This document shows, in pieces, positions 45,548 through 48,687 of a stretch of DNA of 64,000 nt. The notes beneath the pieces are model-generated. The model worked only from the letters and a program-made list of their open reading frames with translations, had not been told where the DNA came from and ran no database searches. The DNA is from Betaproteobacteria bacterium. Its GTDB lineage: Bacteria; Pseudomonadota; Gammaproteobacteria; Burkholderiales; Rhodocyclaceae. The stretch's first letter is position 1; each line of letters opens with the position of its first letter. Both the position numbers and the translations under genes were made by a program. Location of the stretch: NCBI GenBank assembly GCA_016194935.1, contig JACQAO010000070.1:62001-126000 (forward strand), written 5' to 3'.

Positions 45548-45931
45548 TCAGTCCTTGACGATTATTTTACCGCTCATCTCCTCATGGCCGACGCCGCAGA
45601 AATTGTCGCATAAAAAATCGTACACGCCAGCCTTTTGCGGGGTCAGATGTACGGTGGTGACCTTGCCCGGCGGCAGGTCGACGCGGATATCCAGGTCGGG
45701 AACTTTGAAACCGTGAACAAAATCGAGTGAAGTAAATTCAAGGCGGGCCGGCACGCCTGCCTTGAGAATGATTTCATTGGGCGTGTAGATAAATCGCTTC
45801 GCCACGACTTTGACAACGCGCTCTTTGCCGGTCTTCGGGGCCGCGCTGTGGGCGGCCCCGATCGACACCAAAGCGAGTATCGCCAGACAGGCTGTGCCGA
45901 TTTTCCAGCCTTTGCTGATTTGCAGATCCAT
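45548..45931 (-). CDS. periplasmic cupredoxin with a CuA-type site
   Basis: A 127-residue protein with a signal peptide (ILALVSIGAAHSA) and one cupredoxin domain. The metal ligands match the CuA centre of cytochrome oxidase subunit II: H73 (DFVHGFKVPDLDI), then C108, C112, H116 and M119 in CDNFCGVGHEEM. The oxidase Glu position is N110. Unlike COX2 it has no membrane helices besides the signal, so it should be a soluble or anchored two-copper electron carrier. It begins three bases after the phosphoesterase stop. The electron partner could be the cytochrome c upstream. Function as electron carrier or copper handler is inference. Confidence 0.9.
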   Translation of the reverse strand: MDLQISKGWKIGTACLAILALVSIGAAHSAAPKTGKERVVKVVAKRFIYTPNEIILKAGVPARLEFTSLDFVHGFKVPDLDIRVDLPPGKVTTVHLTPQKAGVYDFLCDNFCGVGHEEMSGKIIVKD

Positions 45932-45934
45932 GCG

Positions 45935-46816
45935 TCAGGCCCGTGTCACCGGAAATTCCGTGATCTTGAGTTGGAACGGTTTGTCTTCTGCTTCCACTTC
46001 ACGAAAGCCAAGTCCGGAAAATGGCGCAGCGGGATTCCAGGGCAGCGGTGTGCGCTTGTCCTGCGATCCCGGCGCGGGCAGCGGAAACACCAGCGACTTG
46101 GCGGAATGGTGCGCGATGTGTCCGGTCATATGGTGGTTTTCCTGATGGATATGACCATAGAACACCGTCACGTTCGGGTACTCCATCAGAATCTGGACGA
46201 CCTTGGCGCCGTCGCGGGTCGCCCAATCCCACTTGGGTACCAGGTCGAACAGCGGGCGATGGGTAAATACCACGATGCGCGCGTCCCTGGCTTGCTTGGC
46301 CAGATCAGCGGCAAGCCAGGCAAGCTGTGCCTCGCCGATGCTGGCGCCGGGATCGGAGACGTTATCCAGAGTGACGAAATGCACGCCCTTGTGATCGAAG
46401 GAGTAGTGGGTTTCACCGAAAAACTCCTTGAAGGCGGCGCCGTTATCCAGGGAAGCGTCATGCTCGCCCGGAATGAAGTGCACATTTTTGACCTTCAGAT
46501 CGCTGACGATGTCGCGGAACTCCGTCAGGCGTTTGCGGCGTTCCTTGGGGTCGTCGGTGGTGTGGGTCAGGTCTCCGGTAAACATGATGAAATCGGGCTG
46601 TAGTTCAAGTCCGTTGACGGTTTCCACTGCTTTGCGCAAGGTATTGTTGGCCTCAGGATTGGCCGGCCCCTGGTAACCCCAATGGGAGTCAGAGAGCTGG
46701 ACGAAATAGAAGTCGTCGTAGGCTGCTGCGGCCTGGGTGATCTGGGACAGTCCCGACAGGAAAACAGCGCCTCCGCCGACGGCGGAAAGTTTCATGAAAT
46801 CGCGGCGATTGATCAT
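45935..46816 (-). CDS. Tat-exported calcineurin-like metallophosphoesterase
   Basis: A 293-residue enzyme with a twin-arginine signal (NRRDFMKLSAVGG), so it folds in the cytoplasm before export. Motifs of the metallophosphoesterase fold are D43 and H45 (LSDSHWG), D82 (FTGDLTH), GEHD (117-120), FTHRPLFD and GHIHQENHH. The usual GNHD is GEHD here, changing a bridging-metal ligand from Asn to Glu. A strong AAGGAG precedes the ATG. It lies between cytochrome c and the CuA protein on one strand. The substrate (phosphodiester, phosphoester or other) is unknown. Confidence 0.88.
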   Translation of the reverse strand: MINRRDFMKLSAVGGGAVFLSGLSQITQAAAAYDDFYFVQLSDSHWGYQGPANPEANNTLRKAVETVNGLELQPDFIMFTGDLTHTTDDPKERRKRLTEFRDIVSDLKVKNVHFIPGEHDASLDNGAAFKEFFGETHYSFDHKGVHFVTLDNVSDPGASIGEAQLAWLAADLAKQARDARIVVFTHRPLFDLVPKWDWATRDGAKVVQILMEYPNVTVFYGHIHQENHHMTGHIAHHSAKSLVFPLPAPGSQDKRTPLPWNPAAPFSGLGFREVEAEDKPFQLKITEFPVTRA

Positions 46817-46961
46817 TAAATGCTCCTTGGCTTGGTTGGAGAAAATGGCTGGAGAGGCGGATACGGATCAATGTCATAGAGAGTCATTGCCCGTCCGTAA
46901 GTAATACCGGAGCAGCAGAGAAATTATTCCCGTGCGATGAATTACGCTGCGTCAGCCAGGA

Positions 46962-47333
46962 TCAGTTGGCTGTCAGCGTTTTAAGGTAGGCAATGATGTC
47001 GCTGCGGTCTTTGGCGCTTGGCGCCGAGATGCCCATTTTCTGTCCCGGAACAAATTTCTCGGGGTTGGCGAGCCAGCGGTCCAGGGTTTTTTCGTGCCAC
47101 ACGATCTGCGAAGCCGTCAGCGCGGGAGAATAGGCGTAGTCGGCGCGTGACGCTGCTTTACGACCGAATACGCCACGGTGGGCCGGGCCGACGCCGTTAT
47201 AGTCTGGGTTGTGGCAAGCCGTGCATAGGCTATCGTAACGCGCCTTGCCGCGCACGGCATCGCCGGCGGCGATAGCGCAAGTGGTGAAAGTCATGATCAG
47301 AATTGCCCCGAGAGCTTTGGTATGATGCGGCAT
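46962..47333 (-). CDS. small c-type cytochrome
   Basis: A 123-residue periplasmic class I cytochrome c. It has a signal peptide (LIMTFTTCAIA), heme motif C37-T-A-C40-H41, and axial M100 in PGQKMGI. The overall shape (GPAHRGVFGRKAAS, RSDIIAYLKTL) is like mitochondrial-type cytochrome c. A ribosome site AAAGGA precedes the ATG. It is the first gene of the minus-strand set with the phosphoesterase and CuA protein, 145 bases apart, and divergent from the ECF sigma gene, so it may be under that sigma factor. Confidence 0.92.
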   Translation of the reverse strand: MPHHTKALGAILIMTFTTCAIAAGDAVRGKARYDSLCTACHNPDYNGVGPAHRGVFGRKAASRADYAYSPALTASQIVWHEKTLDRWLANPEKFVPGQKMGISAPSAKDRSDIIAYLKTLTAN

Positions 47334-47479
47334 GACGAAATTCCTTTCAGTTCGGATTGGTCTGGCACATATCGCAATACTGGTGCGGAGGCGGAGTTAT
47401 TCCGGTTTTTTTTGAAACGGAAATACGTATCAGGCGGGAATATTTTGCCGACTGGCGCGGTCTACCTTGTGAGGGCAGC

Positions 47480-48022
47480 TTGACAGAACAAGCACGACAA
47501 TTTGAATCGGTCGCAATGACTTACCTCAATGCGGCCCATAACCTGGCAAGGTGGCTGGTGCAGGATCAGCAGATTGCACAAGACATGGTGCAGGAGGCCT
47601 ACCTGCGCGCCCTCAAGTACCGTGATAGTTTTCGCGGAGGCGACATGCGGCCCTGGTTTCTGGGGATCGTCCGCAATACCTGCTACACCTGGTTGCAACA
47701 GAGCCGGCAGTGGGCGGATCAGGTCGAGTTCGACGAGGAGCGGGACAGCGGTAATTGTGAGTTGATCTTTGGACAGGCGGAGAGCAATCCCGAAACTTTA
47801 ACCATGCGTAAACAGGAGAGCCTGCACTTGAACCAGTCGATCAATGCCTTGCCTGCGCCGTTTCGTGAAGTATTGATTTTGCGCGAACTGGAGGAACTGT
47901 CTTATGAAGATATTGCCGTGGTGGCGGCGATTCCTGTGGGAACCGTAATGTCGAGATTGTCGCGGGCGCGTGCGATGCTGCGCGCAGCCCTGCAACGCCC
48001 GCATGGCAGGGAGGCGGCATGA
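47480..48022 (+). CDS. ECF RNA polymerase sigma factor
   Basis: A sigma factor of about 180 residues. Region 2 is AHNLARWLVQDQQIAQDMVQEAYLRALKY, and region 4 is LPAPFREVLILRELEELSYE with helix-turn-helix EDIAVVAAIPVGTVMSRLSR. The start is uncertain: TTG 47480 has a spaced GAGGG and gives a plausible N-terminus; ATG 47516 would be shorter; the frame is open to 47357. The stop overlaps the next gene by four bases (ATGA). It faces the cytochrome c/phosphoesterase/CuA genes and is a natural candidate for their control. Confidence 0.9.
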   Translation: MTEQARQFESVAMTYLNAAHNLARWLVQDQQIAQDMVQEAYLRALKYRDSFRGGDMRPWFLGIVRNTCYTWLQQSRQWADQVEFDEERDSGNCELIFGQAESNPETLTMRKQESLHLNQSINALPAPFREVLILRELEELSYEDIAVVAAIPVGTVMSRLSRARAMLRAALQRPHGREAA

Positions 48023-48687
48023 TGGAAAACCGCGAAGACAGCGAGCTTGCCGGTTTGATTAAAAAAAATGCGGACTATTTTGAAGCGCCGCATGATCTGC
48101 GCAACCGTATCAACCAGATACTGGCGCAAGCACCCGCGCAACAGGAACCAGGCAGAGCCGGGCGCTGGCCGGCGTGGCGACAGTGGTGGGGCATGGGCGC
48201 CGCTTTTGCCGTGGGCGTGATGTTGAGCGTGGCGGTGGTCTCCTGGCGTGCGCAGCAGGCCGCGCAGGACGATATGGTCGAACAAGTGGTCGATAGCCAT
48301 ATACGATCCCTGATGGGTACGCATCTGTCGGACATTGCCTCATCCGACCAGCATACGGTCAAGCCGTGGCTCAGCCATCACCTGGATTTTTCACCACCGG
48401 TGGCAGACCTGGCGGCGGCAGGATTCCCGCTGACAGGCGGGCGCATGGACTACATGGAGGGGCATCCAGTCGCGGCACTGGTATACCAGCGGCATTTGCA
48501 TACCATCAACGTATTCGTCTGGCCGCTGCATGGCAAGTCACAGGGCGCGCCTGTATCCGCCATGCTGCGGGGGTTCAATGTTCAGTCCTGGGAAAAGGAC
48601 GGCATGCAATTCTGGGCGGTGTCGGATGTCCAAGCCGACGAGCTGGTAAAGTTTGAATCGCTGCTGCGTGAGCAGTCCGGGCTATAG
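48019..48687 (+). CDS. membrane anti-sigma factor (cysteine-free)
   Basis: A 222-residue protein predicted to bind the ECF sigma factor. A cytoplasmic N-terminal region (YFEAPHDLRNRINQIL) is followed by one helix (about 59-76, GMGAAFAVGVMLSVAVV) and a periplasmic domain of about 140 residues (AALVYQRHLHTINVFVWPL). There is no Cys, so the zinc-binding H-C-C motif of ZAS anti-sigma factors is absent. Coupled translation with the sigma gene supports the role. The signal it senses must act through the periplasmic domain; it is not evident from sequence. Confidence 0.85.
   Translation: MMENREDSELAGLIKKNADYFEAPHDLRNRINQILAQAPAQQEPGRAGRWPAWRQWWGMGAAFAVGVMLSVAVVSWRAQQAAQDDMVEQVVDSHIRSLMGTHLSDIASSDQHTVKPWLSHHLDFSPPVADLAAAGFPLTGGRMDYMEGHPVAALVYQRHLHTINVFVWPLHGKSQGAPVSAMLRGFNVQSWEKDGMQFWAVSDVQADELVKFESLLREQSGL

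Follow-up and report, generated by a model that had tools for sequence, protein, structure and literature searches.

The SoxB thiosulfohydrolase is an exported protein of the metallophosphoesterase (MPE) fold that acts in a redox pathway together with cytochromes. In Sinorhizobium meliloti the extracytoplasmic function (ECF) sigma factor RpoE4, a member of group ECF26, drives the expression of sorT, a cytochrome c gene and the pseudoazurin gene azu2 in the sulfite response, as outlined in the cited part of PMC3511301. Here we describe a locus that can be compared with both systems. It lies between positions 45548 and 48687 of a 64,000-nucleotide stretch (the window) of a genome of the Rhodocyclaceae (GCA_016194935.1, contig JACQAO010000070.1, positions 62,001 to 126,000), and contains genes for a class I cytochrome c, an MPE exported by the twin-arginine translocation (Tat) system and a soluble cupredoxin of CuA type, which face an ECF sigma/anti-sigma pair. 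Pfam and the coordinates agree with this gene set as it was given in a preliminary description of the window, and the residues named there are correct (C37, C40 and M100 of the cytochrome; H73, C108, C112, H116 and M119 of the cupredoxin). Judging from sequence, the chances are about even that the locus encodes a periplasmic enzyme under ECF control that, in catalysis, exchanges electrons with a carrier of its own.

The MPE gene (45935–46816, minus strand) encodes a calcineurin-like protein with matches to Pfam Metallophos (47.1 bits, cut-off 21.5) and TAT_signal; no NCBIfam model matched at its cut-off, the best reaching 41.8 of 225 bits. The protein lacks the GNH(D/E) motif with its metal-ligand Asn. 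Alignment showed that the Asn of GNHD is replaced by Glu118 (GEHD) in 81 of 81 MPE proteins, and in a wider census Glu was found in 52/52 proteins, whereas the weaker matches that served as controls had Asn (47/47). The differences between the two groups also include Trp for Met196 and His for Arg146. With Glu at this position throughout (81/81 and 52/52), phosphoester hydrolysis, which the preliminary description had assumed, is not supported as stated. The solved structures nearest to the MPE model (pLDDT 69) are Rv0805, GpdQ and purple acid phosphatases, some of them with iron; the model is of low confidence in its C-terminal part, and our statements about the metal site rest on the alignment.

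The census was made with a profile of 21 GEHD proteins (A2). Among the sampled Pseudomonadota, 23 of 397 genomes, the window's own included, had a match at E ≤ 1.7e-82, the next match being at 2.3e-29. In Acidobacteriota, 29 matches with E values up to 1e-50 came from 24 of 199 sampled genomes, and GEHD enzymes were also present on plasmids of Actinomycetota. A carrier gene, coding for a cupredoxin, a CxxCH protein or a Rieske protein, was found within about 1.5 kb of 51 of the 52 GEHD genes. Cupredoxins were found in 33 loci (12 nearer the CuA type and 21 nearer the blue type), Rieske proteins in 3, CxxCH proteins in 25 and a sigma factor in 39.

One carrier rule was applied alike to these loci and to two control sets. 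The GNHD set (n = 47) consisted of 7 loci and 40 of the next listed places, 3 in that stretch having been skipped; it contained no cupredoxin, Rieske protein or sigma factor, and its carriers amounted to 4 CxxCH proteins in 4 loci. Because GNHD proteins are mostly not exported, 40 places of 5′-nucleotidase type were added as a second control, chosen from the match list and examined from about 3 kb upstream to 1.5 kb downstream; 18 of the 40 had a signal-like stretch, and a few were not clearly such enzymes. These had no cupredoxin or Rieske protein, a CxxCH protein, and hence a carrier, in 5 loci, and one sigma factor. The association of GEHD genes with any carrier gave Fisher p values of 3e-22 against the GNHD set and 7e-19 against the 5′-nucleotidase-type set, calculated over census rows that are related to one another. 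Cupredoxin or Rieske genes alone gave 36/52, as opposed to 0/47 and 0/40. The periplasmic electron circuit proposed in the preliminary description is thus supported by a carrier near 51 of 52 GEHD enzymes.

The type of carrier goes with the enzyme clade in the MPE tree, apart from some substitutions. Three members with a Rieske protein are placed inside the CuA clade and seven with a di-haem cytochrome c inside the blue-copper clade, and a third group is accompanied by a MauG-type peroxidase and a cytochrome; the branches are long, some forks are open, and the deeper order is unsure. Pfam analysis of example loci identified Rieske, Haem_bd with Cytochrom_C, SoxA-TsdA cytochrome and HIPIP domains. 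Plasmid relatives, with 30–38% identity, retain the Glu and adjoin other electron carriers: a sigma factor, a Rieske protein and a blue cupredoxin in Mycobacteroides, a blue cupredoxin in Streptomyces, a SoxA/TsdA-type cytochrome in Sinorhizobium, and a di-haem peroxidase with a SoxA/TsdA-type cytochrome in Methylocystis. It was on account of these relatives that our focus moved from CuA to the enzyme. The retention of the enzyme while unrelated carriers are swapped argues that it needs electron transfer, and not copper or haem as such. The clade marked by GEHD, Trp196 and His146, which in many members is under ECF control, may be an unrecognised class of periplasmic oxidoreductases, a phosphoesterase fold turned redox enzyme, whose carboxylate-richer two-metal site would cycle electrons through a dedicated, exchangeable carrier; we rate this as a real possibility that falls a little short of even.

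Individual GEHD loci had further features. L088 (G431 contig 165) contains a GEHD gene of CuA type and another of blue-copper type within 4 kb. Genes that by eye resemble pmoC, pmoA and pmoB adjoin, in L231:1-8059, those for a GEHD enzyme and two CxxCH peroxidase-like proteins. Genes for FUR-family regulators (L248:4960-5397 and L254:9115-9735) adjoin peroxidase-GEHD-cytochrome loci, and a high-potential iron-sulfur protein (L233:5468-5785) is encoded near a divergent GEHD enzyme, a haem protein and genes identified by eye as tat-like.

SoxB, which works beside SoxAX, is a precedent for a hydrolase encoded in a redox operon. Along the same line the MPE could be a plain two-metal hydrolase of a periplasmic oxidation pathway, in which the cupredoxin and cytochrome take the electrons of another step. 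The retained MPE fold with most of its metal ligands would be consistent with such a role, as would the SoxA/TsdA-type cytochromes adjoining some relatives and the position of the Sinorhizobium relative near soxYZ. However, neither a second enzyme nor a SoxYZ-like carrier recurs, the MPE is the only enzyme beside the carrier in most loci, and the Glu is invariant in the group, and we regard this explanation as unlikely.

Purple acid phosphatases need a mixed-valent state. It is conceivable that the MPE is a phosphodiesterase with iron in its two-metal site, and that the carrier, by fixing the valence of this site, turns the enzyme on or off according to the redox state of the periplasm. Such gating would suit the nearest structures, some of which have iron, but the Asn-to-Glu replacement changes a metal ligand of the known hydrolases, and a switch would not seem to require as many as four unrelated types of carrier; we consider it quite improbable.

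The linkage of the genes was examined in 80 related loci, found with the MPE as query. The cupredoxin gene lies directly downstream of the MPE gene in 78 of them. A sigma gene is present in 78, within 2.5 kb in 76, an anti-sigma gene in 77, and all four core genes (MPE, cupredoxin, sigma and anti-sigma) in 74; at least three of the six loci missing one or more core genes are short contigs. The adjacency of MPE and cupredoxin, the proximity of the sigma gene and the completeness of the core indicate that the arrangement is not due to chance. Scattering of the exported genes in relatives had been named beforehand as the outcome that would speak against a common system; the MPE and cupredoxin genes were not scattered. 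The preliminary description had treated the three exported genes as one set, which holds for the MPE-cupredoxin pair; the cytochrome is optional, a window-like cytochrome c being detected by phmmer in 14/80 loci. No true MPE-carrier fusion was seen; the long frames encountered in GC-rich genomes looked spurious, and no search aimed at fusions was made. A Janthinobacterium plasmid (L212:2727-5046) carries a remnant of the module, in which cupredoxin, short cytochrome and sigma genes remain and transposase-like DNA occupies the place of the enzyme gene.

The sigma gene (47480–48022, plus strand; Pfam Sigma70_r2 and Sigma70_r4) probably starts at TTG 47480, since TTG 47357, from which the longest open reading frame runs, is upstream of a promoter-like site. 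This site, GGAATA-N17-GTCT (47437–47463, plus strand), precedes the sigma/anti-sigma genes, and sites of the form GGAATA-N17-GTAT precede the cytochrome gene (47377–47403, minus strand) and the MPE-cupredoxin pair (46904–46930, minus strand). As the cytochrome gene has a promoter-like site of its own, the three exported genes probably form two transcription units. The sites at the locus have the −35 GGAATA and −10 GT of the ECF26 promoter consensus, as given in the cited part of PMC6180224. For three GGAATA-N17-GT(A/C)T sites in 64 kb the expected number was 0.02 with this pattern, which apart from its ECF26-type cores was fitted to the three sites after they had been noticed, and 0.24 with a looser one.

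In the relatives a strict site (GGAATA-N17-GT(A/C/T)T) was found upstream of 48/78 sigma and 41/80 MPE genes, compared with about 2% of random stretches of 250–380 nucleotides from the same 80 loci. The spacer was always 17 nucleotides; spacers of 15, 16, 18 and 19 gave no site. In the census the strict site occurred in 19/52 GEHD loci versus 0/47 GNHD and 3/40 5′-nucleotidase-type loci. In the window's own genome the pattern occurred 11 times and a reversed-pattern control twice; three of the 11 sites are at the module, one precedes a second sigma/anti-sigma operon (contig 17), and of the others five are within called genes and two elsewhere. From this distribution the regulon looks small and local. 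That the window and its relatives have this promoter-like site in common supports the control of the exported genes by the sigma factor that the preliminary description had suggested. The second operon (L268:3664-6910) has a promoter site of the same type; the gene preceding it encodes a small exported protein, and the one following it a Tat-type protein.

Several links to described sigma factors were considered. With the window sigma as tblastn query no S. meliloti record was among the matches listed at 1e-12. S. meliloti RpoE6 did not serve as a bridge to ECF26: when plasmids were searched by tblastn with the sigma and anti-sigma factors of the locus, pSymA was not among the matches listed. 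On rhizobial plasmids, homologues of the sigma/anti-sigma pair had no MPE among their annotated neighbours. Brucella BcrS and Bradyrhizobium EcfF were dropped as leads to an oxidant signal, as they belong to ECF16 with NrsF/OsrA-type anti-sigma factors according to the cited parts of PMC8315932 and PMC3420878.

The anti-sigma gene (48019–48687, plus strand) shares ATGA with the sigma gene at 48019–48022, and its assignment is based on position, this overlap and a structure model. In the model (mean pLDDT 88) two short helices at the N-terminus are followed by a long predicted membrane helix (residues ~56–76) and a predicted periplasmic domain, whose best likeness among solved structures is to MucB/RseB, weak but specific (E 4e-4, TM about 0.3). 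Pfam gave no match for the window protein; a zf-HC2 anti-sigma domain was found in two relatives. Thiol sensing was rejected, because 37 of 57 anti-sigma factors have no Cys and none of the Cys is conserved. His94, His112 and His161, all in the periplasmic domain, are invariant (57/57), which, together with the lack of a conserved Cys, leaves room for a sensor of a metal or ligand. On the Mycobacteroides plasmid (L098:3709-4413) the place of the anti-sigma factor is taken by a Rieske protein, which has an N-terminal stretch and probably a membrane segment; its gene overlaps the sigma gene by 4 nucleotides, upstream of those for the blue cupredoxin and the GEHD enzyme. This Rieske protein is possibly a redox-sensing anti-sigma factor.

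The cupredoxin gene (45548–45931, minus strand; Pfam Cupredoxin_1 and COX2) follows the MPE gene after 3 nucleotides. Its product aligned with the Thermus CuA domain (phmmer, 68.6 bits) with all ligands in register, and has the two Cys, two His and one Met in CuA spacing. Among 78 cupredoxins C108, C112, H116 and M119 are invariant, whereas position 73 is His in 45 and Met in 33, so that CuA, after which the preliminary description named the set, is not its constant part; other members of the enzyme family carry blue copper, cytochrome c or Rieske proteins instead. The natural His-to-Met change at ligand 73 tracks position 110, that of the carbonyl ligand: His+Asn was found in 40 proteins, Met+Ile/Val/Leu in 33 and His+Val/Leu in 5. 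The Met-for-His variant would be one natural carrier if the MPE is a redox enzyme. A CuA site outside cytochrome oxidase and nitrous oxide reductase had been presented as unusual, but a CuA site in a cupredoxin outside these enzymes is already known from PmoD, as reported in the cited part of PMC6189053. The cytochrome gene (46962–47333, minus strand; Pfam Cytochrom_C, with CTACH and Met100) codes for an exported protein, and occurs only alongside His73 cupredoxins (14/44 His73 forms, 0/33 Met73 forms). That the cupredoxin is a copper store or chaperone, the sigma factor answering copper or envelope stress and the MPE serving in repair or signalling as a hydrolase, is very improbable: it would accord with the cupredoxins in 33/52 census loci, the genes for SCO and cbb3 oxidase that adjoin the relatives in Sinorhizobium and Phyllobacterium and the three invariant His of the anti-sigma factor, but in other members the position of the cupredoxin is occupied by cytochrome c or Rieske proteins, neither of which carries copper, and genes for copper pumps or regulators do not recur beside the form found in the window.

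If the MPE is an electron-exchanging enzyme, the system could work as follows. The membrane anti-sigma factor would hold the sigma factor and sense envelope stress by its periplasmic domain. Released sigma would transcribe its own operon, the cytochrome c gene and the MPE-cupredoxin pair from the GGAATA-N17-GTHT promoters. The MPE would fold with its metals in the cytoplasm, be exported by Tat and act in the periplasm as a two-metal enzyme, passing electrons to the cupredoxin, or taking them from it, and, where it is present, to or from cytochrome c, which would connect to the respiratory chain. This scheme is based on gene linkage, promoter-like sites, the Asn-to-Glu replacement, and the linkage and substitution of carriers; sigma release, the altered metal site as the reason for a carrier, the direction of electron flow and the substrate are what we infer. 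A small reactive anion of the sulfite class is our best, though improbable, guess for the substrate, made because the promoter type and wiring match RpoE4/SorT, soxYZ is near one relative and cytochromes of SoxA/TsdA type are found. Oxidant or iron stress is suggested instead by the genes for FUR-family regulators that adjoin two loci of peroxidase type.

Several observations weigh against a redox enzyme under ECF control. Every metal-ligand position but one is of phosphoesterase type in the alignment. About half of the relatives' upstream regions have no strict promoter site, most census loci (all but 19/52) lack it too, and 13/52 GEHD loci have no sigma gene within the flank. In one GEHD locus (L131) no carrier was found, its place being taken by a protein that looks TPR-like by eye. 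GEHD neighbours had themselves supplied the sequences for the blue-copper and CuA profiles, rows of the census are related and some identical (L149, L150), and the haem test was a bare CxxCH pattern that also scored in 4/47 and 5/40 controls. No further recurrent neighbour, a substrate gene included, was found beside the module when gene lists were inspected by eye; all-against-all clustering of neighbours put the module genes and their antisense frames into a single cluster, further wide clusters seemed to consist of antisense or frame-shifted frames, and the remaining ones came from a few related genera.

Taken together, the data suggest a small stress-switch gene set of soil and water bacteria, and hint at an undescribed electron-driven chemistry outside the inner membrane. 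If this is true, a very common hydrolase fold has an electron-chemistry branch marked by one residue for which genomes can be scanned, and proteins annotated only as metallophosphoesterases become a testable enzyme class linked to a defined sigma regulon. The natural swaps between CuA, blue copper, cytochrome c and Rieske carriers would then be an experiment already run by evolution. We found no description of the module in the open-licence full-text literature; the ECF reclassification paper is outside it and may list the sigma group. In the papers listed for it the GEHD motif was not found, and 'metallophosphoesterase' together with 'cupredoxin' gave only work on Arabidopsis GPI-anchored proteins.

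With Rv0805, GpdQ and the purple acid phosphatases the MPE has in common the fold and six of seven metal-ligand positions. They have GNHD or GNHE, whereas the MPE has GEHD and is exported with carriers; Trp196, His146 and Asp202 also differ. The SoxB system differs in that the GEHD module contains neither SoxYZ nor SoxAX. The cupredoxin has the CuA ligand set and spacing of subunit II of cytochrome oxidase and of nitrous oxide reductase, but by its sequence is a free, soluble, single-domain protein. The CuA cupredoxin PmoD, also outside those enzymes, has a different ligand set, located between two chains, as far as the cited part of PMC6189053 describes it. The RpoE4-EcfR4/sorT system is similar in wiring and promoter type: in the cited parts of PMC3511301 and PMC6180224, genes for an ECF sigma factor and a membrane anti-sigma factor adjoin an operon for a periplasmic enzyme, a cytochrome c and a cupredoxin, with promoters of GGAATA/GTCT type. 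That system has a molybdenum sulfite dehydrogenase as its enzyme and a pseudoazurin as its cupredoxin, whereas here their places are taken by a GEHD relative of the metallophosphoesterases and a cupredoxin of CuA type.

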